From: Chloromonas sp. AAM2
Taxonomy: Eukaryota > Chlorophyta > Chlorophyceae > Chlamydomonadales > Chlamydomonadaceae
DNA: 11,436 bases
Reading direction: 5' to 3'
Assembly: GCA_004335635.1 (NCBI GenBank)
Contig: QAXH01004912.1
Coordinates: 6,327 to 17,762 of the forward strand
The notes beneath the pieces were generated by a model, which ran no database searches, was not told the DNA's origin, and saw only the letters and a list, made by a program, of their open reading frames with translations. Of this stretch, positions 597 through 11,436 are shown in pieces. Each line of letters begins with the position of its first letter. Within the stretch, counting starts at the first letter, position 1. Made by a program: the position numbers and the translations under genes.

Positions 597-661
597 GCGA
601 GCATTGCCAAGACTATCGAATACAATCCGTACTGGGGCCATGACCGAACCGACTTCTACCG
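597..661 (+). CDS. Exon 1 of the traced chain (residues 1-21 plus two bases)
   Basis: The acceptor is a pyrimidine-rich tract ending CTCTGCAG at 596 and the donor is GTATAAC at 662. Phase 0 entry gives ASIAKTIEYNPYWGHDRTDF followed by Tyr and two bases (CG), completed to Arg by the first base of exon 2. Tyr-, Trp- and charge-containing sequence of this kind suits a membrane-proximal loop or amphipathic helix just before the hydrophobic exon 2. The donor is the least canonical in the gene. More upstream exons must exist, because a FUSC-type domain should have earlier membrane helices. Confidence 0.62.
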
Positions 662-3600
662 GTATAACGCACTGTGAGCAAATGACAGTGAGCTGAGGTT
701 GTCATTGACCATTTGAGCAGGACTGGGAGCTAGTAGGGTAGGGTAACCAGGAATGTGTAAGTGTTCGCATGGACGCCCTATGGTTGGCTAGGTTGGCTGG
801 GTTGACTTTGATAACGGCGCTTTAGATTCTTCTGTACTGCAGTAATCAATGTGCTATGGATAACTGTGCTGCGGCTTGTGCTGCCCGTTGACACCGTACG
901 ATGCCCGCATGGCACCCTCTACCTGCACCCCCTTGTGTCCATGCGTGCTGTTGCATGTGGCATGACTGCATGTCCCATGCTTGCATGCAGCTACATGTGC
1001 CATGACTGCATGCCCCGTGCTTGCATGCAGCTACATGTGCCATGACTGCATGCCCCGTGCTTGCATGCAGCTGCATGTGCCATGACTGCATGCCCCGTGC
1101 TTGCATGCAGATACATGTGCCATGACTGCATGCCCCGTGCTTGCATGCAGATACATGTGCCATGACTGCATGTCCCATGCTTGCATGCAGCTACATGTGC
1201 CATGACTGCATGCCCCGTGCTTGCATGCAGATACATGTGCCTGTGTGCCGTTGGGCTGGCCGTCCTAGTTATCAACCGTGTGGGTGCCGACCCGCCCTTC
1301 CTCTGGGCCGTCGGCATGATCAGCTGCCTGGTAAGACAGACACCACATGCAGGGCACCCATTGTACGTAACCTTTCATGCAGCTTGGTTTCTTTCATTTC
1401 TCGTCTCTCACCTTTAGTTGACCCTTGACTCTTGGCTTCGTATTTTCTCTATTTTCTGTTTTCGAAACGGTTTTTCCCTGCTGCTTGGGTTTCGTCAGGA
1501 TGGCATGCAGCCCCATTTCTTGCTTCAACTTCAGGCTCAATGCACGTGGGCCCACCTTCTGCAATCTTTAAACAATCACAAAAGCAGTCACGTTGCAATG
1601 ACAGAACTGCGCATGCTGTGACTGCATGCATGTAACGTATCCAGACCAACCGATGCCAGCCAATCAAATGCAACAATTGTGCCATCAAAACACTGCCACG
1701 TCCAAGGTTGATACTAGCACTGGATGTCGAGTCTTGAACCTACCGGCGCCCGTCGGTCGCTCATGTGCTGTTTGTGCAGACATTCGGCATTGTGGTCAAC
1801 ACGGGCCAATTCGCCCCTCCAAAGGTGCCTGCACCGGCATCAGACCAGTTTGGAAACCAGTTCAACTGGTATTGGAGACAGGTAATCGATTCATCTTGGC
1901 TGCTGTCACCCTCTGTTACTCCTGGTCACTGCCCTTACTCTGAGGGCCAGTTCTTTGATCATTCACTTCCTTGATGGGCTTATCTTGCCTTCTGGGCGCC
2001 GTTGGTTCTGCATACGCCTTTGTTATGATTAAATACGGTGGAAGATTCAGCACCTAGAGGTTTCTAAATGCAATTCTAGCTGGCCTGAATACCCAATGCA
2101 TGGAACAGCACCATCAAACAGGGATAGTGTGGGTCAGTGACCCCCCTCAGTCCCACTCACAAGCAGGCTCCCATGCGAGTCCAACACCCATGCGCTGATT
2201 GTATATCTTGCAATAATGGTGTGTTTGTACCACAAAGTATCACATGAGCAGTCCATGCGACAAAGCAAGCCTTTCCAACCAGCGATGCAGGCACGTTTCA
2301 CCTTCTGCCTGCCTGCCTTCAACTTTCACCTTCCATGCCTGCCTGCAAATGCATGTGCCGGGCTACATGCCTGCCTGCAGCTTGTCAGTCGTATGCTGCT
2401 GGGCCGTGCTGACCAGCAACACAGCTACTTGCACCTTTCACCTGCCTATTATAAGGTTGTTGGTGTTGTTGTTGCTGTTTACATGGCTTTCAGTCCGGGG
2501 AGGACTGCTCAGCAGGGGCAAGGCAGGAAGGAAACCAGGTAACCTGTAAGTCTACCACATGTGTGCTTGCCTGCCTACCTGCCTGCAGGTTGTTAGCCGT
2601 ACTCTGCTGGACCTGGTCATAGCGCAGGGCACAGTGCTGTTCACAGGCTTGGTGGTGCTGCCCACATACGCAAGTGTGGAGCTGAGAAGTAAGGTGGCCA
2701 AGGCGCTCAACGGCATCGGCAACAGCGTGTCCAAGTACGCGTCCAAGGTACGTGCATGTTGATGTCTGCAGTACATATACCGTACTGCTCCAAACTAGTT
2801 TGCGTGGGGGTTTTGGGCATTTGCAAACTATCATCAGCAGATGTAACTAGGGCAGAAAGTTGCTCGTGGACTACACACACACACACATACAATCATTCAT
2901 TACATAGCTTCTCATGGCTCAACCCACCGCAGGACCAACCAGCTAGGCGCTCAGCAGCAGCCAACATCCCCAACCTAAGCAAAGCATGGGCATGGTGCCC
3001 CCAAGAAACATGCACATGCAAGGTTCACACACATACACAACATAATAGGTTTCTGCACTAGTAACACTCGCTGGTTGTGGAGTGAGGGTCTGTGGTGGAC
3101 CTGATTCAGTAACGGTCCAAGAGGTTCTGGTTCAAGCTTGAAATGCTACTTGGGACAGTCACAGTTGTTTACAGCGCAGTCACACAGTCTCTGCAATTCA
3201 ATCGTGTGCATTACACAAGATGATTTAACGGCGTATGCCTTTCAGAATCTCAACATGGATGCATTTCAATTCAAGGTGAACTAGTGTTAAATGAAATGCA
3301 ATGGTACAATGATACGTGCAGATCTTGGAGCCAGAGGACCCCCAAATGTTGTATGTGCGCCCGCCGTCCAAGTCGATTCCGAACCAGAATCCGAACTTTG
3401 TAACCGCCTCTGACAACTCCGAGGAGCTGCAGACTTCCCACACAAGCGGTAGCGGCGACGCACTGCCTCAGCAGGATGAGCTTGCATCAGCAAGGAACAT
3501 CTCTGATATGGACGCGATACTGGGATTGGTGAGTGGGCATGGCCCGAAGAATACAAACATCATCACGTTCTTGTGCGTGTGTGACAGTTTCACCACTCAA

Positions 3601-6600
3601 ACGCTTCTTCTCTTTAGTACCTGACTCGCATATTAGTACTCCTTACCGAAAACCTTCTTAGAGAGAGTCCGCAAAGGACGCAAAGGCGTGCCTGTGACTG
3701 CAACCGTTACTATGAAATGGGTGACGTGCATTTAAGCAGGTCTGATGATGCTCTTAAACGTGAGTCAAGACGTTTCCGTCCGTTACGTGTTCTGGCCTGC
3801 ACTACTCTATACAGGTGGATGTTGAGGATGAGGAGCCGGACGATGAAACCGTGCTCCAGTACCTTCGTGAGGTGAGAGCGAGAGAGAGTGAGAGGCTGAG
3901 AGAGTGTGACTGAGAGAGTGAGAGTGAGGCTGCAAGAGGGAGGCTAAGAGTGAGAGGAGGTTGAGAGAGTGAGAGGCTGAGAGAGTGTGAGAGTGAGAAG
4001 CTGAGATGGTGATGTCTTGCATGACCATCTGTTATGCAGTATTTGCGCGGTACTTGAGCAGTACTCACACTCAAATTGGTTCCATCCCTGTGTGTATGTG
4101 TGCAGTTGTCTGGTCCCATCCATGGTGGACCGCATGCAGCCACCAAGCCCGCCATGTCGCCTGTGCTCAAACTGGGACCGCCAGTGGCGTCCTACCGAGC
4201 TCTTCTGGGCAAAGCACGAGCTGTGAGTGGGGCACTGGCAGTGGGTTCCTGTGACGTGCTGTTGTGCGTGTAAGGCAAAGTCAGGTCAGAATTCATGGCC
4301 TTGACGTCTTCAGTACATGCAGTTGCGGCCACAACGTTGAGGTTCGCCTTATCATGAGGTACACACTTCAGTGTGACGTGTGTGAAATGCTACTCACTGA
4401 CTCACTGCTCCAGTTGCGATTGACAAGACTATCATGGCTGCTGGCGACAAGTGCCGCAGCCATTATACAGCCATACGTCGACAGTGGTATAAGACATGGA
4501 AAATACAAAAGCTTCAGAGATACATCGTCGTCGTTCAATGCTCTGTCGCTGCAGTTAATGCCGTTTTCCATCATCGAGCCGCCCTTTGTCACCGGATACA
4601 CCTTCCATTCAGGTGCGTGCTGCACGTCTTTGATGGTGCTTATGTGACTTGGTCTTAGGACCAACGCTTGTGTGCATGTGACTGTGTGCGTATTTGGATG
4701 AATTCAACCTCCCACATTCTGCCTCTTTCAGCGCTTGTCTTCCCGGCACCTGCCCTTTGCCTGCTCTTTGCTCGTATGCAACACTGTACCATTACCTTAA
4801 CCTGTACCATTACCTCAGCATTCCACTCAGGGGTGTGCCTCTGGCAAGTGTCCAAACCAATACCTGCTGCTACTGTCATTAACTGCCATATGACTTTGGA
4901 CATGGACGTTCTCTTGTCTCTTTCACTGGCATCTGGTCTGTGTGCATGCGTCCCAATCAGTCCATGTGCGCTCCTGAAACTCATCCCTGAACTCTTCCCT
5001 GACATGCCGCAGTGTTCACCGCTCCGAGCCGGTGCTTCACAGCAAGATAACCCTGCCTTAGCCCTTTGTCTCAGTGAGCCCAACATGTTGTTCCTTCTGT
5101 ACTTCAGATGCATGTCATGAGGAAAGCAATCAAATTGTTGGTCTCTGTCCAGATTGTCGCATGTCCTCAATTGTTCTTCCCTCTTCGTTGTTGATTTCCT
5201 TAGGTGCGTGGGGCCGAGTGATGGGCTGCTGTGAGGTGCTGCTGACGCGGGTGGCCGGCATGGAGGTGGTGGTGGAGGAAAGGAGGCAGGTGAGGCGGTT
5301 TGTGGTTCCGCCTCTTTATTTAATTATTTTATTTATTTAATTATTTATTTATTTTTATTTATAGCAAGGGGGTCAAGTATGATAGAAGGGGTGGGTCACG
5401 AAACATATAACAAAATCTGTATGGGGCAGATTGTTGGTACCGACAATCAGTGAGGCTGCGGAAGGTCTGGTGCAAAGGTTCCACTTGCAAAACCCCCATG
5501 TGTTGTGCACACGCCATGCATGGGTGGACTGCATGGGTGGACTGCATGGGTGGACTGCATGGGTGGACTGCATGAGTCCCATCTGGGACCCACTGCATCA
5601 CGAAGCTCATGTGCAAGCAAGCCTGCCCACAACCGGATGCAGTTACGCACCCTTCAAGCCATCACAGAAAGTGGACAGAACAAATGCCTTGAAGGTGGGC
5701 GCCTGGCTAATCAGAGTTGTGGTAGCATGAGTATGAGTAACAATTGAGTGAGTCTGTCAAGTGGCGGCCTGAGACCAGTGTCATTCTGCCTGCACAGGTG
5801 CTGGGCGAGACCTCACTGGAGAGTCACTTCACCGTCAGTGTGGTGCCCAACCTGCGGCTAGTGTTCGCAGAGGTGTGTGTGAGACTACTTTTCCATTCTG
5901 ATAGCCTGTTAAGGGGTTTTCACACGCATCATCTTGTTTGCGGAGGTGGGTGGAGCAGGCTTCAGGGACTGCTTGTCCAATCTGACAGCCGGTATGGGGG
6001 TGGGGATGTCACATGCCAGGTGGGTAGGACTCGAGATACTCCTGGGGTCTATCTCGTCCTGAGGCTCCCTTTGGCTCGCTGTGTCCGAGGTCCATGCAAA
6101 CTCTTGGATGCAACCTCCATGTGATGTTTGAAAACCCTTACATGGGCACCCCAACCACTACATCATCAAAATCGGGAGAGAAAGTAAAGGAGTGATCAGT
6201 TCAGTTAACACTTCAGTGGCCGACAGAAGCCGGTGTGTGTTGCATGCAGGTGGCTGCCACATGTGCCTCACTGTCCAGGACTCTGGACCCCAGCTTAACA
6301 CGAAGAAAGGTGAGCGGCGAAAATGAATGGGGCATGTGACTGTGAGTTGGACTGGCATGGAGCGCCAGCTGTCACGGCATGTCACCTGGTGCTTGCTGTC
6401 ATTCCGGCAAGTGCTTTCAGCACGGAGGAACAAAGGGAGTGGGAGGAGACAAGGGGACAAGGCAAGTGAGAAGGAAAACAGGAAAGAACAAAAGAGAGAC
6501 GAACGTGTTGATAGCCTATCACTAATAATGCAGGTCTCCCCATGATTGCATGACTTGAAACAGGCCACACCTGGTGGCACCCCGGGTCATTCCATGTGCC

Positions 6601-9600
6601 TCAATCACGCTAACCCGCCTTCAAACGCTTCAACATAGGCATCAACGCTCTCTAACCTCATACAAATACCACTGGCTGGCTCAAGGAGCGCGGCAAGACT
6701 GGAAAGGGTGGCCCAGGCTGAGCAAGGTTGATTGGAGGTTGTTTATGTCTAGCGAGCCAACCCCAGAGCGGAGTTCAGCTTTGAGCGCCTTGTTGGGATA
6801 GTCCTATCACAAGCTACCTAGCGTGCTTACCACGATCTTATGTGCTTAACAGACCGACGGTTCTGTGCGCGTTCTGGTGTGCTTGACAGAGACATGCTTA
6901 ACAGAACGAGGCCAGAAAAGCTGCTGCGTGTGAATTGAGACGCCGTGTGCGAGCAGAATGAGGTCAGAAAAGCATGCGGCATGGGCTACTGAAGACACCA
7001 AACGCGAAGCTGCGCACACCCGTGTGTTCGCCCGTTCGACCGTCACAACAAGCCTAGAGTCGTCGCATTTGTGCGGAAATGCCAACCTGTGCAGAAATGG
7101 CCAACCTGCATCAGCGGTTGAGACATTCAGTCATGGGGCGACCGACAGGCAACATATGACAATAGCAGCCAGTGCTTGCTGTGCTGTTTGGGTTACGTCT
7201 CGCTTCTCAGCTGTCAGTTTCTCAGCTGTCAGAGTTTCTCAGCTGTCAGTTTCTCAGCTGTCAGTTTCTCAGCCGTCCGAAGACGGGTTTATCTTGTTCT
7301 TTCTTGCGCGTTGCAGACGCACAAGCGCGGCATTGTTCTAGTGAATTAAGCAACCAAGCTGTCCAGAGGATAGGCATCGACCATGCATGTTTTGTTTGCT
7401 CATACGATAACTACACCTTTGTCTCCTTTGTGCAGACGCATGCAGTGGGTGGTTGCATGGCCATGTTTGGTCGCTCCTGGCAGGCCACCAGAAACGACCT
7501 GAGAGCGGTCATGGGCGCGGCAGCCAAGGGTTACATCAGGTGGGTACATCAACAAAACAGTCAGGGGTCCGACATGCACGCTGGCAAGCCATGCACAGGA
7601 CGAGGCTGGATATCATCCTGACCAAACCGCAAATAGTCGTAAATGGACACTGAGAAGTCACGAATGATCACTGTCTCAGTCAACTTGTCGACACGATCAA
7701 CACTGGCAGAATCACACCTCCCTGCTTCTGATAAGGATTCAGGTTCTCACAGGAGGGCTGCACACTTATTTTCGCCGACCTATCACTCACTTTTGGTCAA
7801 GAGTTGGAGCCCGCCCCATCCTTAGCAGCCAATCTTGAGGTCCAGACTTTGAGTATGCCATTGTGCTCAGTTTCCATAACAGCTTCCCAATGCATCATTG
7901 CAAGCAACAAAATGTTGAAGTTTGAGTCCGGCTCCAGGGGTCTGAATTCTCCGCCAGTCTGGGGCACCCCTGTCGGTTTCCGGCCATTTCCGGACTCCAG
8001 CATGGGGTTTCCGGACCTATCAGAGTATGCCATTGTGTAGCTCTCAACAAGCCCGGCACAATGGCATGTTCGGATATTGTTTCTGACTCATGGATGGCCT
8101 GCAAAACGATTTTACCGTGAGGCCTCATATTTCCTTTTTCACCCGTGACCCCCCCTCACACCCCCCTGTTCCTGACCAGCTCAGAATGGCCCCAAACTTG
8201 ATCGGAGGCTCCCCGGCAGGTAACTAAGCCAGTGCCGTGTGGTTGCCCCTTCACATGTCAAAAGTGAGGTTTGTGCCAACCCCCTGGGTATTCGAATTGT
8301 TTTCTCAGTTTCATTCTTATTCTGCGCAATGGGCAGGACATCCATCATGTTGGGTTGTTTGTGTGTTTGCAGGCGTGTGTACGATGACCTCAACAGTCAC
8401 ACAATCACAAAGGACGGCACAGTTGCAAAAGTGCACATCCTCGACGGCACGCGGGTGAGGCCCTGTTTTGAGCAGCAAGTCTTTGGTTGAGCTGAGGCCG
8501 TCTGTGGACATCATGATGATCGGATTGAAGAAGTGCTACTCTCTGAACCGGCTGAAGGTTACCAAGTGGGATGCTGAAGGTTGCTGACTGGCTTGCACTT
8601 TGAAAAAATACACGTGTTCTGATTCCTTGCCCCTTTTCTTCACACATCCTGGGCTTCGGAAATTTCAAAGAATCATGGCAAATGGCATTCTTGTTGAATA
8701 GTAGCTTTGAGTTATGTAAAAACTGACCCACATCATCCACTTTATCGTATATGCTCCAGCAGCTTGCTCTATCTTATGTGTTGTTGTATCAGCCATGCGC
8801 CATGCCGCAACTGTTATGCACTTGCGGGGTGCTGCATGTATGCTGTTGTGGCTGTGGAATAGCGACAACTGCACGTGTAATGGTGACTGCCACATGCATG
8901 GACTGCTGACTGTTGTATGCGTGAAACAGTGACAATTGTGTGCTGGCGTGTTCCACAGATGCGCGGCATCATGTACACCTTCAGCCTCACTCTGGGCATC
9001 ATAGACGCCATGGAAGACCTCGAAAAGGCAGTCCATGCACTGGTACTAAAAACGCGAGGAGCCATACCCAAAGGCCAAGGCCCGCCAGTACAACCAATGG
9101 ATTTGAGCATGGGTTTGGAAGCAGATATAGCAGCAGAAGCTGCTGAAAACAGCAACACCGCGCTAGCGACCGACAAGGACGCAAAAACGGTTTCGGAAAC
9201 CGTTTCCAAGGCGGTTGGCGAGGCCGTTGAGGTTGATGTGGAGAAGGGTGGTGTAGTGTCAAAGGCTGTGGTGGCTAAAGGGAACGGGCCGGCTGGGCCT
9301 GCGCCCCACAAGGCTCCACCTTCCCCACACATCCTCTGGCTTATCATGGTAATCACTGTAAGTGATCGGCTAACATGGAACTGATATTTATGCACATTAT
9401 TGCCTCAGTGTGACGGTGAGAGTTAGGCCAGATTGCTCACTCAGTCGCTTCTGAGGGGTGCGACTGACACGAAAATGCTCGGATTAGGTTTGGAACGTTT
9501 TAGCATCCACAACTCAAACATGGATGGATCTATGCAATGAATGGTAGCTGAGATTCTGCTTGTGCTTGCATCCCTAGCTGGTCAACCTGTTGTCTTCTCC

Positions 9601-11436
9601 CCGTATTGCACCAAGAGCCTGTTGCATCTGTGTTGCAGTTAGAAACGGGCGTTCCCCTGTGGGGCGGTCTGCTGCACTGGGTCACCAAGGATCTGCCCTC
9701 GGTGTTTAGGCCGGGCGGGCTCAGGGCGGCACTCCAGTCGAGGATGGTGCACATGTACCTCAAATACTATGTAAGTGTCAAGGCTGCGTCTGGGTAAGAA
9801 TAGTAGCTTAAAAATGACGAACTGAACCCGATGAATTGGTTTGGCTTTGGGGTAGTGTAGGATTGCTATGTTGAAGCAATAACGCTGCTAGTAGTAGGAC
9901 TGCTACTCCCAGGCAAAAATGTGGATCAAAGAGTCCAGCTCATTCACAAGCACCTGCTAGCTGGAAGTGTTAGTTGCAAATAATGGGAGTGTGAGTGACA
10001 GATGGTTCGGATTGAGACTTGGGTCGCGCAGACACAAAGCTACAACGTGCAGGCACAATGGCTGGTCTTGGCCACAATTGTGGGTCTTGGCTACAATTGC
10101 TGCTTGGCAATGCTGAGCACTTCACTCGCACAGCCAGAAATATACTGTTTTGTTCACACACCCAAACCTTTCCACCAGAGCTGCATGAAGGGCTCTGCGC
10201 CTAAGCTGAAATGAGATGATCACTATTATCGTTCTACTTGCCGTGCAGGCGTGCCGCCTCGCCCCTGCTGAGCAGTCCTCCCCGGACTGAAGGCCGTGTA
10301 AACAGCAACAGCAGTAACAACAACCTTGACAATTCCCCTGTGCTGTGCGTTGCCCTGCAGTCCTGTCTCCTGCTCATCATGATGCTGATCCAAGGACTGG
10401 GGGCAAGGGCTGACACCGTCAACGTGCAGCTCTACAGACCAGTCATTGCATTCAACGCGGCCACGCTCTCCATGTCTGAGCGGGTGAGGCCGTGCTTAAG
10501 CTTGTCAATCTGTTCTACAGGGAATGTTGTTGTATGTTGTTTACATGGCCGTCAGTCCGGGGAGGACTGCTCAGCAAGGGCGAGGGAGGGAGGGAGGGAG
10601 GGAAAGCAAATAGAACAACTGTTAACTAACAGACAGAGAACGTGTTCTATCGAGGTCGTTTCTTCACGTGAGTGCTTTCGTGCTGTAGGCGTACCACAGT
10701 GTGCTAGTGTAGTAATGATAGCTTGCCACTGCATTCGACACAGCTCTGCTCTTTATGTCTGAGAGGGTGAGACTCTGAGTGTATGTGTACGCTCATAGAT
10801 GCTCATGGGTAGGGTCCAGAGCGGCCATCGTAAAACTGAGAGTGAAGTTTGCCAAAGTCTGGAACACCCATATGTAGGTATTTGCCTTCAGCTGCGCTGT
10901 GCTCTCCATGTCCGAAAGGGTGAGACCGGGCGCGTGTAGTGTGTGCCTGTGCCTGTGCCTGTGCCTGGGCCTGGGCCTGGGGTCTCTGTCTGCGCGTGCG
11001 TGCTCTGTTTTTTACATCTGTATCGTTCCACAAGTGGAGCAGAAGATGGCGTAAACGTCAACCTCTCATCTGAGCAGGAAGCATGTCTCGCTGGACAAAA
11101 ATTGCCACACATGGCCCATGCATCCGCTAAGTGGCTCCCCAGGGTGAAGCCCGGCATTCACAACCATTGCATGTGTTGACATGGCCCGTATGGACTGTTG
11201 TCATCGCCCTCACGGATTCGTTTCACGGCCACAGCGCCTGGCCGCTTCTTATGGCACGCATCGACTCTTTCTCCAGTATACCCGCCCTTTGTTTCCTCGT
11301 CCCTACCTGTCAGCCATTGGCAGTAGGCCTGCCTTGCCTCTCCCTGCGCTGTGACTTGTGCTATATATATATGTATTTACACCAGGGAAGCCGTCAGAGG
11401 ACACGGAACGGGATGGGCACTGCCCTGGCCTACCCT
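597..11436 (+). CDS. Multi-exon FUSC/ArAE/ALMT-like membrane transporter gene, both ends missing (whole-gene entry)
   Basis: Sixteen segments, 597-661 to 9639-9770 and 10361-10483, join in one frame through GT-AG introns to give about 642 residues. The intron phases match at every junction, including three split codons (exons 1/2, 8/9 and 12/13), which is unlikely by chance. The order is a hydrophobic block (residues about 23-120), a basic amphipathic helix, a charged and helix-rich soluble middle (about 143-424), a long low-complexity linker (about 455-545), then a second hydrophobic block. FUSC, aromatic-acid-exporter and ALMT proteins have this plan: pairs of helical membrane domains with cytosolic helical parts, moving organic anions or aromatic acids. 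The substrate cannot be read here. Motifs in keeping are the Pro-Thr-Tyr turn followed by a basic helix after the exon 4 membrane segment, and Glu-Pro-Pro in exon 8. No start codon, promoter, stop or poly(A) site could be assigned. The family call is inference; the splice chain is directly seen. Confidence 0.72.
961..1240 (+). repeat. 40-base minisatellite, seven full units, ending inside exon 2
   Basis: Seven head-to-tail units begin at 961, 1001, 1041, 1081, 1121, 1161 and 1201. Each unit is CATGACTGCATG, then CCCGTGC or CCCATGC, then TTGCATGCAG, then a ten-base end such as ATACATGTGC. Variants are few: CTAC, CTGC or ATAC after the AG, and CCCCGTGC versus TCCCATGC. Every unit carries the same TTGCATGCAG acceptor. 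The last ten bases of the seventh unit are the first ten bases of exon 2. Open frames on both strands here are repeat artefacts. Confidence 0.97.
1231..1330 (+). CDS. Exon 2, first clear membrane segment
   Basis: It enters with one base completing the Arg codon from exon 1 and ends phase 0 at donor GTAAGAC. It encodes residues 23-55, starting YMCLCAVGLAVLVINRV, then a short polar turn with Gly-Ala-Asp-Pro-Pro, then FLWAVGMISCL. This reads as one membrane helix, a turn, and the start of a second helix continued by exon 3. The acceptor TTGCATGCAG and the first ten exon bases belong to the last unit of a seven-copy 40-base tandem repeat, so six look-alike acceptors lie upstream. Only the last acceptor gives the clean in-frame hydrophobic product. 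Confidence 0.8.
1331..1779 (+). other. Intron 2
   Basis: It runs from donor GTAAGAC to acceptor TTTGTGCAG, 449 bases. It contains scattered TGCATGC elements related to the minisatellite (near 1503 and 1620-1630) but no organised array. No further coding segment was supported. Confidence 0.75.
1780..1881 (+). CDS. Exon 3, end of membrane helix and Pro-rich loop
   Basis: The acceptor is TTTGTGCAG and the donor GTAATCG, both phase 0. The 34 residues begin TFGIVVNTGQFAPPKVPAPA and end with FNWYWRQ. The first part completes the helix begun in exon 2, the Pro/Ala stretch looks like an exposed loop, and the aromatic Asn-Trp-Tyr-Trp-Arg end would sit at the membrane surface before the exon 4 helix. 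ALMT/FUSC proteins carry a comparable loop with aromatic residues before the last helix of the domain. Confidence 0.85.
2370..2403 (+). pseudogene. Decayed copy of exon 4 acceptor and start
   Basis: The 11 bases before the AG (CCTGCCTGCAG) are identical to those before exon 4, and 18 of the next 23 bases match. The frame reads LVSRMLLGRADQ against VVSRTLLDLVIA in exon 4. Similarity fades after about 25 exon bases and no matching donor is present, so this is a truncated duplicate whose acceptor might compete with that of exon 4. Confidence 0.65.
2453..2527 (+). repeat. Dispersed repeat copy R1
   Basis: About 75 bases, starting AAGGTTGTTGGTGTTG and ending CAGCAGGGGCAAGGCAGG. It matches the reverse complement of copy R2 (10254-10326) at about 63 of 70 positions, and R3 over the core. 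The core contains two small inverted repeats, CAGTCC..GGACTG and CTGCTCAGCAG. It sits between the decayed exon 4 start and exon 4. No open frame or transposase is attached; it could be a short non-autonomous element or a fragment of a longer one. Confidence 0.85.
2589..2747 (+). CDS. Exon 4, last membrane helix of first domain and basic amphipathic helix
   Basis: The acceptor is CCTGCCTGCAG and the donor GTACGTG, both phase 0; 53 codons. It starts VVSRTLLDLVIAQGTVLFTG and goes on into LVVLPTYASVELRSKVAKAL. A hydrophobic helix of about 20 residues ends at Leu-Pro-Thr-Tyr and is followed by a Lys/Arg/Ser-rich amphipathic helix. This is typical of FUSC/ALMT-type proteins, where the last helix is followed by a Pro turn and a long cytosolic helix. 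It is the strongest family signal in the window. A decayed copy of the acceptor and exon start lies upstream at about 2370-2403. Confidence 0.88.
2748..3321 (+). other. Intron 4
   Basis: 574 bases from GTACGTG to TACGTGCAG. It contains a short CA microsatellite (2872-2887) and the possible 90-base cassette exon at 2933-3022. The remaining sequence shows nothing recognisable. Confidence 0.7.
2933..3022 (+). CDS. Possible cassette exon between exons 4 and 5 (low confidence)
   Basis: A 90-base phase-0 open segment lies between a CCACCGCAG acceptor and an AAG/GTTCAC donor. It reads DQPARRSAAANIPNLSKAWA and ends ETCTCK. Including or skipping it keeps the frame. The acceptor context is weak in pyrimidines and the donor is poor, and exon 4 joins well to exon 5 without it. 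It may be an alternative exon or chance. Confidence 0.2.
3322..3528 (+). CDS. Exon 5, acidic/Ser-rich cytosolic segment
   Basis: The acceptor is TACGTGCAG and the donor GTGAGTG, phase 0 at both ends, 69 codons (residues 143-211). It starts ILEPEDPQMLYVRPPSKS and becomes rich in Asn, Ser, Thr, Gln and acidic residues, ending SDMDAILGL. No membrane segment is visible. It looks like a flexible cytosolic region after the amphipathic helix of exon 4. The function of this segment is not recognised. Confidence 0.85.
3815..3871 (+). CDS. Exon 6, short acidic exon
   Basis: The acceptor is CTATACAG and the donor GTGAGAG, phase 0 both sides. It encodes 19 residues, VDVEDEEPDDETVLQYLRE, strongly acidic, joining the acidic tail of exon 5 to exon 7. 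The donor runs straight into a purine-rich repeat that carries many further GTGAG sequences. Confidence 0.82.
3872..4005 (+). repeat. Purine-rich GAGAGTG repeat directly after the exon 6 donor
   Basis: It is built from GAGAG, GTGAG and GCTGAG steps. A 28-base segment at 3882-3909 is repeated exactly at 3963-3990. Starting from the true donor (GTGAGAG at 3872) there are several further GTGAG matches in the array. The opposite strand reads as Ser/Leu repeats in two frames, an artefact of composition. The whole block could also fold as a polypurine triplex-type tract. Confidence 0.9.
4106..4222 (+). CDS. Exon 7, Pro/Gly-rich loop and helix
   Basis: The acceptor is TATGTGTGCAG and the donor GTGAGTG, phase 0, 39 codons (residues 231-269). 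The first half is rich in Gly, His and Pro. The second half, LGPPVASYRALLGKARA, is helical and runs into the Glu-Pro-Pro motif of exon 8. In FUSC-type cytosolic domains a helix with a small basic residue pattern commonly precedes a Trp/Glu-Glu-Pro motif, which fits this order. Confidence 0.85.
4223..4554 (+). other. Intron 7
   Basis: 332 bases from GTGAGTG to GTCGCTGCAG. Several internal AG sites (for example GTACATGCAG near 4322 and CTGCTCCAG near 4414) could act as earlier acceptors, but only the 4554 site gives the in-phase Glu-Pro-Pro product. Confidence 0.7.
4555..4612 (+). CDS. Exon 8, Glu-Pro-Pro motif
   Basis: The acceptor is GTCGCTGCAG and entry is phase 0. The donor GTGCGTG leaves one base (G). 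It encodes LMPFSIIEPPFVTGYTFHS and the first base of a Gly codon completed by exon 9. The Glu-Pro-Pro followed by an aromatic/Gly stretch resembles the Glu-Pro motif in the cytosolic helical part of FUSC-like proteins. The exon would be missed by simple ORF calling because of its length, but the phase match to exon 9 supports it. Confidence 0.85.
4613..5203 (+). other. Intron 8, flanked by a 9-base direct repeat
   Basis: 591 bases. The sequence AGGTGCGTG occurs at 4611-4619, across the donor, and again at 5202-5210, across the acceptor, so removal from either copy gives the same mRNA. Inside there is an 18-base imperfect tandem duplication (CTGTACCATTACCT, near 4784 and 4802). A 150-codon open frame here lies between two phase-matched splice sites and I do not treat it as a gene. 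No terminal inverted repeats were seen. Confidence 0.7.
5204..5289 (+). CDS. Exon 9, amphipathic cytosolic helix
   Basis: The acceptor is GATTTCCTTAG; two bases complete the Gly codon from exon 8. The donor is GTGAGGC, phase 0. The product AWGRVMGCCEVLLTRVAG continues with a Val/Glu-rich stretch ending ERRQ. It reads as a long amphipathic helix. Its first bases, GTGCGTG with a preceding AG, repeat exactly the sequence at the exon 8 donor. Confidence 0.87.
5315..5364. repeat. TTTA/ATTT low-complexity block
   Basis: About 50 bases almost only of A and T, made of repeated ATTT and ATTA steps, 25 bases after the exon 9 donor. It contrasts sharply with the surrounding near-50% GC sequence. It may be a decayed poly(A/T) tail or a simple microsatellite. 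No element body was found attached. Confidence 0.85.
5521..5572 (+). repeat. Four-copy 13-base tandem repeat
   Basis: The unit TGGGTGGACTGCA is present four times without change at 5521, 5534, 5547 and 5560. It shares GACTGCATG with the 40-base minisatellite at 961-1240. It produces a Gly/Trp/Met-rich frame that is a repeat artefact. Confidence 0.95.
5798..5872 (+). CDS. Exon 10, cytosolic segment
   Basis: The acceptor is CTGCCTGCACAG and the donor GTGTGTG, phase 0 both sides, 25 codons. The start is VLGETSLESHFTVSVVPNLR and the end LVFAE. It connects smoothly to exon 11 (LVFAE then VAATCASLSRTL), giving one predicted helix across the junction. This helix supports the join. Confidence 0.85.
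5873..6249 (+). other. Intron 10
   Basis: 377 bases from GTGTGTG to TTGCATGCAG. A weak 24-base duplication (about 5893-5916 and 5977-6000, 18 of 24 matching) is present. Its acceptor TTGCATGCAG is the same ten-mer as in the exon 2 minisatellite. Confidence 0.7.
6250..6309 (+). CDS. Exon 11, short helical exon
   Basis: The acceptor is GTTGCATGCAG and the donor GTGAGCG, phase 0, 20 codons: VAATCASLSRTLDPSLTRRK. It is an amphipathic helix ending in a basic cluster. The next intron (1126 bases) is the longest in the gene, so a missed small exon between 11 and 12 cannot be excluded. Confidence 0.8.
6310..7435 (+). other. Intron 11, the longest, repeat-rich
   Basis: 1126 bases from GTGAGCG to TTTGTGCAG. 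It contains a purine-rich stretch (about 6422-6503), short repeats around TGCTTAACAGA (6841-6910), a duplication of AGAACGAGGCCAGAAAAGC at 6902-6920 echoed at 6955-6973, a small duplication around GTGCAGAAATG (7069-7108), and the five-copy repeat at 7203-7276. A missed small exon is possible. Confidence 0.65.
7203..7276 (+). repeat. 15-base tandem repeat TTTCTCAGCTGTCAG, five units
   Basis: Five units with small variations (the second is followed by an extra AG and the last reads CAGCCGTC) occupy 7203-7276. Each unit carries a pyrimidine run followed by CAG, so each looks like a weak splice acceptor. No exon of the chain begins here. Confidence 0.9.
7436..7539 (+). CDS. Exon 12, helical cytosolic segment
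   Basis: The acceptor is CTTTGTGCAG and entry phase 0. The donor GTGGGTA leaves two bases (AG), completed to Arg by exon 13. It encodes THAVGGCMAMFGRSWQATRN followed by DLRAVMGAAAKGYI. It is helical, with Gly- and Ala-rich parts. The phase match with exon 13 is good evidence that it is real. Confidence 0.85.
7540..8372 (+). other. Intron 12
   Basis: 833 bases from GTGGGTA to GTTTGCAG. A 15-base word GAGTATGCCATTGTG occurs twice exactly (7851-7865 and 8023-8037). A C-rich tract lies at about 8149-8168. Open frames of 60-80 codons here do not fit the phase of exons 12 and 13. Confidence 0.7.
8373..8454 (+). CDS. Exon 13, polar cytosolic segment
   Basis: The acceptor is TGTGTGTTTGCAG; the first base completes Arg. 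The donor is GTGAGGC, phase 0. The product RVYDDLNSHTITKDGTVAKV ends HILDGTR. It looks like a surface loop or beta-like element between helices. I recognise no named motif in it. Confidence 0.85.
8455..8958 (+). other. Intron 13
   Basis: 504 bases from GTGAGGC to TTCCACAG. I see no repeat array, RNA gene or coding segment in it. Confidence 0.7.
8959..9357 (+). CDS. Exon 14, long exon: helix, low-complexity linker, start of second membrane domain
   Basis: The acceptor is GTTCCACAG and the chosen donor GTAAGTG (phase 0), giving 133 codons, residues 425-557. The first 30 residues (starting MRGIMYTFSLTLGIIDAMED) are helical. The middle is a hydrophilic linker rich in Ala, Val, Lys, Glu and Thr (for example VSETVSKAVGEAVEVDVEKG). 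The end, HILWLIMVIT, starts a hydrophobic helix continued by exon 15. A second in-phase donor, GTAATCA, sits nine bases upstream at 9349 and would drop Val-Ile-Thr. At 399 bases it is by far the longest exon. It also contains a 17-base near-perfect palindrome at 9187-9203. Confidence 0.88.
9639..9770 (+). CDS. Exon 15, second membrane domain, entry helix
   Basis: The acceptor is TCTGTGTTGCAG and the donor GTAAGTG, phase 0, 44 codons. It begins LETGVPLWGGLLHWVTKDLP, followed by FRPGGLRAALQSRMVHMYL. Together with exon 14 it makes a hydrophobic segment, then an Arg-containing amphipathic helix of the Leu-Arg-Ala-Ala-Leu type. Such a helix commonly precedes the first membrane helix of a FUSC domain. 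It leads into the hydrophobic exon 16. Confidence 0.87.
9771..10360 (+). other. Intron 15 with dispersed repeat R2
   Basis: 590 bases from GTAAGTG to TGCCCTGCAG. It contains a roughly 19-base tandem duplication around GGTCTTGGCCACAATTG (10062-10100) and repeat copy R2 (10254-10326) close to the acceptor of exon 16. No additional exon was supported. Confidence 0.7.
10254..10326 (-). repeat. Dispersed repeat copy R2, inverted
   Basis: It is the reverse complement of copy R1 with about 90% identity, and of R3 at 47 of 51 positions over 10257-10307. It lies 34 bases before exon 16. Together with R3 it forms an inverted pair around exon 16, with a loop of about 227 bases. Confidence 0.9.
10361..10483 (+). 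CDS. Exon 16, membrane helix and MSER end
   Basis: The acceptor is TGCCCTGCAG and the donor GTGAGGC, phase 0, 41 codons. The first part, SCLLLIMMLIQGLG, is a membrane helix. After a polar turn the product ends YRPVIAFNAATLSMSER. Two truncated copies of this last part, each followed by a GTGAG donor, lie downstream at 10722-10766 and 10878-10919. The exon is bracketed by an inverted pair of a dispersed repeat (10254-10326 minus, 10522-10590 plus). Which exon follows is uncertain. Confidence 0.85.
10522..10590 (+). repeat. Dispersed repeat copy R3
   Basis: It carries the same core as R1 and R2 (GTTTACATGGCC, then CAGTCCGGGGAGGACTGCTC, then AGCAAGGGCGAGG), 39 bases after the exon 16 donor. Its 5' part is more diverged. 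It runs into a short GGGA array (10582-10602). Confidence 0.88.
10722..10766 (+). pseudogene. Truncated copy 2 of exon 16 3' end (or optional exon)
   Basis: It encodes LATAFDTALLFMSER in phase 0, directly followed by donor GTGAGAC. Over 35 bases it matches the end of exon 16 at 26 positions. The membrane-helix part of exon 16 is absent. Four stop codons in a row (TAG TAA TGA TAG, 10710-10721) precede it in frame, so it can only be read if the TAG at 10721 acts as acceptor. It may be a decayed duplicate or a mutually exclusive/extra exon. The sequence cannot decide. Confidence 0.55.
10878..10919 (+). pseudogene. Truncated copy 3 of exon 16 3' end (or optional exon)
   Basis: It encodes VFAFSCAVLSMSER in phase 0 after a possible ATGTAG acceptor and before donor GTGAGAC. 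Over 42 bases it matches exon 16 at 29 positions, and the Met-Ser-Glu-Arg end is exact at the protein level. A stop (TAG, 10875-10877) lies immediately upstream in frame, so use requires splicing at that AG. A GTGCCT hexamer array starts about 25 bases downstream. Confidence 0.55.
10943..10982 (+). repeat. GTGCCT / GGGCCT hexamer array
   Basis: About six hexamers, first GTGCCT and then GGGCCT, begin about 24 bases after the donor of exon 16 copy 3. It is a simple microsatellite. The minus-strand Ala/Gln and Gly/Thr frames it generates are artefacts. Confidence 0.9.
11143..11220 (+). CDS. Candidate continuation exon, second membrane domain (low confidence)
   Basis: After a CTCCCCAG acceptor an open phase-0 frame reads GEARHSQPLHVLTWPVWTVV, then IALTDS. 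The Trp-Pro-Val-Trp-Thr-Val-Val stretch resembles the second helix of ALMT/FUSC domains (Trp, then Thr-Val-Val, hydrophobic). No strong donor was found: GTTTCAC at 11219 is poor and would leave two bases at TTC. The frame in fact stays open to the end of the window, so the boundary given is only approximate. Confidence 0.35.
11386..11436 (+). CDS. Candidate last exon in window, cut by the edge (low confidence)
   Basis: After acceptor TTTACACCAG the phase-0 frame reads GSRQRTRNGMGTALAYP and runs off the end. The Asn-Gly-Met-Gly-Thr-Ala-Leu-Ala order resembles the Arg...Gly-Thr motif that follows the second helix in FUSC/ALMT domains. A different phase gives another Gly-Thr-containing reading (EAVRGHGTGW), so the frame is not settled without transcript data or the next bases. 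Confidence 0.35.

Follow-up and report, generated by a model that had tools for sequence, protein, structure and literature searches.

Tandem exon duplication and mutually exclusive exons, as described in PMC9013439, PMC5740500 and PMC6071210, involve the duplication of whole exons of similar length, and the predictor of mutually exclusive exons presented in PMC5740500 allows a length difference of up to 60 nt. In Drosophila, according to PMC2891723, tandem duplication around a proto-splice site in coding sequence has led to the gain or shift of introns. The locus analyzed here, in which parts of the end of exon 16 recur in the intron that follows it, resembles the tandem duplications of the first three reports in that related exon sequence lies in the neighboring intron, in the same frame and with splice sites, but differs from what they portray in that only the last third of exon 16 is involved and that copy 2 lacks a usable acceptor. 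Like the Drosophila case, it displays a short duplication around a splice-competent site, with one copy now intronic; however, whereas PMC2891723 outlines a new intron made within coding sequence, the present copies lie inside an existing intron and carry donors of their own.

The window, an 11,436-nt stretch of contig QAXH01004912.1 from Chloromonas sp. AAM2, accommodates a gene model built by hand that comprises 16 exons with consistent phases and encodes 693 residues without a stop; the host is a probable green-alga gene. The first-pass annotation had reported three copies of the end of an exon, each with its own GTGAG donor, and both the coordinates and the relatedness of these copies hold (Table 1). 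The aligned stretches of approximately 50 nt (10446-10495, 10729-10778, and 10882-10931) contain GTGAG in the matching place in all three, and copies 2 and 3 are, by our own count, 68% alike over 50 nt. Chance is excluded as the source of the resemblance of copies 2 and 3 to the end of exon 16 because their local alignment scores exceed the maximum of 18 (mean 9.6) reached when the intron was dinucleotide-shuffled 1,000 times. The exon-like part of copy 2 (10722-10766, 45 nt) reads LATAFDTALLFMSER and that of copy 3 (10878-10919, 42 nt) reads VFAFSCAVLSMSER, each followed by GTGAGA; four in-frame stops immediately precede copy 2. Given that all three lengths (123, 45, and 42 nt) are divisible by three, the earlier statement that any copy or combination would keep the frame is arithmetically correct.

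Table 1. Exon 16, its intronic copies and other features of the window
Feature	Position	Strand	Details
Tandem array of a 40-nt unit	937..1241	+	seven acceptor-like sites; exon 2 starts in the last unit (1231)
Intron 3 echo of the acceptor edge of exon 4	2356..2405	+	77% identity over 52 nt; acceptor 9.9 bits
Exon 4 acceptor edge	2564..2613	+	exon starts at 2589; acceptor 11.7 bits
Exon 16	10361..10483	+	length 123 nt; both ends in phase 0; donor 9.3 bits
Copy 1 (last 42 nt of exon 16)	10442-10483	+	ends VIAFNAATLSMSER, then GTGAGG
Dispersed repeat, MITE-like (our label)	10525..10627	+	between exon 16 and copy 2
Copy 2, echo of exon 16 end	10725..10778	+	72% identical to copy 1 (50 nt aligned); score 25; donor-like GTGAGA at 10767
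Copy 3, echo of exon 16 end	10878..10931	+	74% identical to copy 1 (50 nt aligned); score 24; donor-like GTGAGA at 10920

The match of copies 2 and 3 is limited to the last 42 of the 123 nt of exon 16, and both span the exon-intron junction, as a duplication remnant should, with 42 exonic and about 12 intronic nucleotides each. A recognizable tandem unit in the intron between the copies, another expected mark of such a remnant, was not found: in three comparisons, the intron segments that separate or follow the copies did not score above shuffles. Because these stretches do not align, a tandem origin is unproven; such absence of similarity is the expected outcome where both intron copies drift freely, and a tandem mode of duplication is our inference. 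Copies 2 and 3 differ from each other at 19 of 54 positions and from exon 16 at 15 each, and this greater mutual divergence is among the evidence for decay. Most likely, copies 2 and 3 are what remains, in decayed form, of short local duplications across the junction of exon 16 and intron 16, a reading supported by the partial nature of the copies, the lack of visible codon-position constraint and the recurrence of such echoes at other exon edges, with broken examples. Short local duplications would have copied the junction into the intron; exon 16 and its own donor would remain in use, maintained by selection, and the intron copies would drift, retaining a donor-like GTGAG for a time and functioning as decoy donors at most. 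Splicing presumably ignores both. Against decayed duplication we count the residues kept in copy 3 (a post hoc observation), the unaligned intron between the copies and, among the echoes of the genome sample considered below, the pooled third-position excess, the bias at locus L043 and the junction share.

The differences from exon 16 at codon positions 1, 2, and 3 number 4, 4, and 3 in copy 2 and 4, 3, and 6 in copy 3, so that no third-position excess was found in the two copies combined (8, 7, 9). Both frames are open and share 8/14 (copy 2) and 10/14 (copy 3) residues with the end of exon 16. The suggestion that the conserved MSER motif points beyond neutral decay is not supported for copy 2, in which the residues kept are unexceptional (P = 0.67 in a one-sided model, 0.38 under free change), and is weakly supported, post hoc, for copy 3 (P = 0.034 and 0.004, respectively); the codon positions fit no constraint, yet the residues of copy 3 lie above expectation. 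The TAG before each copy had been considered usable as an acceptor. That of copy 2 scores -4.8 bits, equaled or surpassed by 61.6% of the 706 AGs of the window, and is not credible; that of copy 3 (4.9 bits; 11.2% equal or better) is weak or marginal, with few of the 16 modelled acceptors (4.1-12.5 bits) scoring lower. The matrix used includes the 16 sites of the window itself; with a second matrix, the values are -8.5 and 2.4 bits. The donors of copies 2 and 3 score 6.1 bits each, compared to 9.3 for exon 16 and 4.6-12.4 for the 16 modelled donors.

These results bear directly on the proposal that exon 16, copy 2, and copy 3 alternate as mutually exclusive exons, thereby varying one membrane-proximal helix. 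Their phase-0 lengths, open frames, same-frame similarity and donors inside the modelled range are all compatible with such a scheme, but we consider it highly improbable: the lengths differ by 78 and 81 nt, beyond the 60 nt accepted by the predictor of PMC5740500; with two thirds of exon 16 missing, a swap would cost 26-27 residues; usable splice sites on both flanks of each copy are lacking, above all at the acceptor of copy 2; and no third-position excess accompanies the open frames, which 81-86% of neutral copies should preserve anyway. Copy 3 could instead be a cassette exon of only 14 codons (42 nt), at times added after exon 16. This option, although unlikely, retains some probability owing to the 10/14 residues kept, and its TAG falls just within the modelled acceptor range, with a donor of 6.1 bits; nevertheless, the acceptor is poor by the second matrix, a stronger AG inside the copy (7.8 bits) would yield a frame-breaking exon of 28 nt from 10892, a second partial helix would be inserted, and the third-position differences (6/13) match the neutral one-sided mean of 5.6.

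The intact GTGAG of copies 2 and 3 would also suit regulatory decoys, maintained to modulate how strongly the donor of exon 16 is used. Such maintenance is very unlikely, given that the copy donors are weaker than that of exon 16, that differences beside the donor are not significantly rarer (8/40 vs 18/56, P = 0.25) and that splice sites have been lost in echoes elsewhere. As for an assembly artefact caused by diverged haplotypes or misjoined reads, the assembly consists of 2,324 contigs and one echo of the genome sample (L041) straddles an N gap, but three copies within 490 nt of sequence free of N, 68-74% alike and separated by unrelated sequence, make this explanation exceedingly improbable.

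The decay of local duplications into decoy donors, the other possibility raised in the first-pass annotation, is supported by the recurrence of echoes in the gene and in the sampled genome, some of which contain a stop or a frameshift or have lost a splice site. Within the gene, 3/32 exon edges are echoed in the intron they border, among them the acceptor edges of exon 2 and exon 4; the score of the exon 4 echo was reached in 0/200 shuffles. In a genome sample of 18 sequences, 298 exon edges were scored against their own adjacent introns and 13 (one of them a gap-edge artefact), about 4%, had an echo, compared to 3/313 for the opposite intron, 0/323 for reversed own introns and 0/644 for random stretches. 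A glucan-synthase-like gene carries five echoes, some broken; the broken echoes at L043 include one with a stop, one with an 8-nt deletion and one with the donor lost. Three L043 echoes are strongly biased to the third position (1,2,4; 1,2,5; 1,0,6), a pattern equally compatible with these echoes having once been coding. Pooling eleven chosen echoes gives 25, 21, and 41 differences by codon position, a third-position fraction of 0.47 that exceeds one third (P = 0.005) and is close to the 0.43-0.44 simulated on exon 16 with one copy held and the other free. Among all local echoes on two contigs, the junction share (6/25 vs 11.4% expected) is not clearly enriched, and the six junction echoes all lie on one contig.

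If decayed duplication is the correct reading, in-phase exon-like intron copies with intact donors belong to the local-duplication background of this genome and may mislead gene prediction. Should the share of about 4% of scored edges apply to the whole genome, Chloromonas sp. AAM2 would be well suited to following how duplicated splice sites decay or give rise to new exons. A broader reading, which is improbable, treats echoes of exon edges as a lasting trait of the genome: short copies of exon ends, splice sites included, would build up in adjacent introns, supply competing sites and occasionally, as in copy 3, serve as small frame-keeping exons. The dispersed repeat downstream of exon 16 has at least 41 further genomic matches, not counting its occurrence in the window (40/698 candidates scored).

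The proposal of the first-pass annotation that the end of exon 16 is echoed twice downstream holds up: the last 42 nt of the exon, together with about 12 nt of intron, recur in the following intron as copies 2 and 3, with alignment scores of 25 and 24 against the exon 16 end, compared with at most 18 (mean 9.6) when the intron was dinucleotide-shuffled 1,000 times. Over 54 nt, the exon 16 sequence (copy 1) differs from each of the other copies at 15 sites and copies 2 and 3 differ from each other at 19, this largest gap being expected if two free copies drift while one is held. We infer that copies 2 and 3 are decayed remnants of short duplications spanning the splice junction, in which the exon side would still be recognizable because one partner was held, whereas the intron stretches, free in both copies, would have diverged twice as fast and lost their alignment. 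With the dispersed repeat, a MITE-like element, excluded, a search for a long tandem unit yielded no alignment of the between-copy intron better than shuffles. In the sampled sequence L039 of the same genome, an identical 41-nt echo lies at a spacing of 99 nt with mostly unrelated flanks, so that some echoes may have been short from the outset. One copy of the dispersed repeat is located in the stretch from exon 16 to copy 2, and another separates exon 4 from its echo; we read both as independent insertions.

With respect to coding constraint, copy 2 departs from exon 16 at 4 first, 4 second and 3 third codon positions, and copy 3 at 4, 3 and 6, respectively; nine or fewer third-position changes among 24 has P = 0.0001 if three-quarters are expected there, a share that we assume for constrained pairs, the two comparisons being non-independent because exon 16 is common to both. 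An open frame is retained by 81-86% of simulated neutral copies. Residue identity is ordinary in copy 2 (8 of 14; P = 0.67 with only synonymous change in the exon, 0.38 with free change) and high in copy 3 (10 of 14; P = 0.034 and 0.004, respectively, in a post hoc test on 14 codons), and this retention in copy 3 is the main result that counts against decayed duplication. Extra conservation beside the donor was not significant (8 of 40 versus 18 of 56 sites differing, P = 0.25).

Tandem exon duplication tied to mutually exclusive splicing has already been described (PMC9013439; PMC5740500), and the first-pass annotation offered such exons as one of two possibilities here. The candidate acceptor of copy 2, the TAG at 10719-10721, scores -4.8 bits on a matrix derived from 55 acceptors of predicted exons and 16 from the window itself; four consecutive stops lie immediately upstream in the copy 2 frame, and an exon running from the 9.1-bit acceptor ending at 10688 to the copy 2 donor meets them in that frame. 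The copy 3 TAG, at 4.9 bits, is among the weakest when set against the 16 modelled acceptors (4.1-12.5 bits), and use of a 7.8-bit AG within copy 3 would define a 28-nt exon that breaks the frame. A second acceptor matrix gives -8.5 bits for the copy 2 TAG and 2.4 bits for the copy 3 TAG. Replacement of exon 16 by copy 2 or 3 would remove 26-27 residues. Thus, mutually exclusive exons do not fit this case in either length or splice sites. The donors of the copies score 6.1 bits versus 9.3 for exon 16, and extension of exon 16 to the donor of copy 2 or copy 3 would add 283 or 436 nt, shifting the frame.

When the 32 exon edges of the gene were compared with both flanking introns (64 comparisons, 200 shuffles each), no shuffle scored as high at three edges, those of the exon 2 and exon 4 acceptors and of the exon 16 donor, in each case in the intron bordering the edge itself; all remaining comparisons gave z <= 2.6. 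The exon 2 edge terminates an array of 40-nt units with seven acceptor-like sites in series (9.4-11.1 bits), three of them in the frame of the gene; of these three, only the modelled acceptor, which comes last, gives stop-free reading. The exon 4 echo, in intron 3, has a 9.9-bit acceptor, 25 nt of exon-side similarity and a frame that runs for 53 codons until its first stop, so that no breakage is visible.

Across 18 sequences totalling 256 kb, of which no less than 18 kb is N, 362 exon edges were tested, with exons from our own small gene finder except in the window, where the hand model was used. In its last round the gene finder, for whose training the 16 window exons of the hand model had been used, returned 13 of them exactly and added 10 others; the comparison is therefore not independent. 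A score of at least 16 was found in 13 of 298 own introns (59 of 357 own-intron comparisons having been excluded as low complexity), 3 of 313 opposite introns, including a donor echo of a short exon in the sequence L043, 0 of 323 reversed own introns and 0 of 644 random stretches. The own-intron rate is rough, because the 13 include one gap-edge repeat in L041, one match confined to the intron side and another of 16 nt, and lack the window exon 2 and 4 echoes, both presumably removed by the filter. In L041, a perfect 76-nt repeat occurs at 1756-1831 and 1999-2074, one on each side of an N gap; these are probably two contig ends left unmerged.

An ungapped scan of 200 kb from two contigs (18,417 bases N) yielded 29 local echoes, 25 after removal of 4 satellite, tandem or gap-edge repeats: 15 without contact with predicted exons, 6 with a predicted junction, 2 with one-sided exon overlap and 2 repeats within coding sequence. 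Many local echoes are thus unrelated to exons. Junctions occur in 2,097 of 18,331 random pairs (11.4%), and all 6 junction echoes come from contig C1141, with none in C1633; their enrichment is at most modest, and they are clustered. A narrow literature search of titles and abstract starts found no partial exon-edge echoes treated as a genome feature, from which we claim no absence.

The closest parallel is a glucan-synthase-like gene at 7142-9202 of L043 (contig C1141), in which four exons jointly match the Pfam 1,3-beta-glucan synthase domain FKS1_dom1 (E = 3.3e-12) and five echoes represent four exon edges.

Exon edges and their echoes in the window and in L043
Sequence	Exon edge	Echo	Echo position
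Window	Exon 2 acceptor	Tandem array ending at acceptor	937-1241
Window	Exon 4 acceptor	Acceptor-edge echo	2356-2405
Window	Exon 16 donor	Copy 2	10725-10778
Window	Exon 16 donor	Copy 3	10878-10931
L043	Exon at 7397	Two acceptor-edge echoes	7145, 7294
L043	Exon ending 8013	Donor-edge echo	8085
L043	Exon ending 8617	Donor-edge echo (spotted by eye)	8684
L043	Exon ending 9095	Donor-edge echo	9146

Three of the L043 echoes are broken, by a stop, an 8-nt deletion and a change of GTGCGT to TTGCGT. Third-position bias is strong in three of the five (1,2,4; 1,2,5; 1,0,6), which could reflect an earlier coding life. In a hand-picked set of eleven echoes, including the three of the window (one aligned stretch containing one donor base), differences at positions 1, 2 and 3 total 25, 21 and 41. 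The third-position fraction, 0.47, is above 1/3 (P = 0.005), below 0.75 (P = 2e-8) and close to the 0.43-0.44 that simulations of exon 16 gave with one of the copies held and its partner free.

The window forms the right-hand end of a 17,762-base contig, the first 6,326 bases of which are N, in a genome of 74.4 Mb and 2,324 contigs. The hand model comprises 16 exons on the + strand (597-10483), with all phases in agreement, and encodes 693 residues without stops. No homologues of the protein were found among 7,999 scored candidates or in PDB, and its last 221 residues matched only themselves in this genome at E <= 0.001. A sub-threshold Pfam match to ALMT (E = 0.066; 12.5 bits versus a cut-off of 20.6) hints at an ALMT-like membrane protein. 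In the same genome there are 30 chlorophyll a/b-binding matches, and one fragment matches the CP26 chains of 6kac (E = 5.5e-65) much more closely than those of 5mdx (E = 1.2e-34); as we take the former to be from a green alga and the latter to be of land-plant origin, the source is probably a green alga. A candidate exon 17 at 11386 was dropped because 11362-11436 belongs to a repeat with at least 39 other genome matches at 95-99% identity, a lower bound from 40 of 1,196 candidates scored; the contig ends within this repeat, which starts at 11362.

Exon 16 is also flanked by oppositely oriented copies of the dispersed repeat (10257-10307 and 10535-10585; 51 nt, 92% complementary). The predicted RNA fold of 10240-10640 (-198.6 kcal/mol; z = -8.57 versus 100 shuffles) contains a hairpin enclosing exon 16 together with its acceptor and donor, which could lead to in-frame skipping of this 123-nt exon or to circular RNA.
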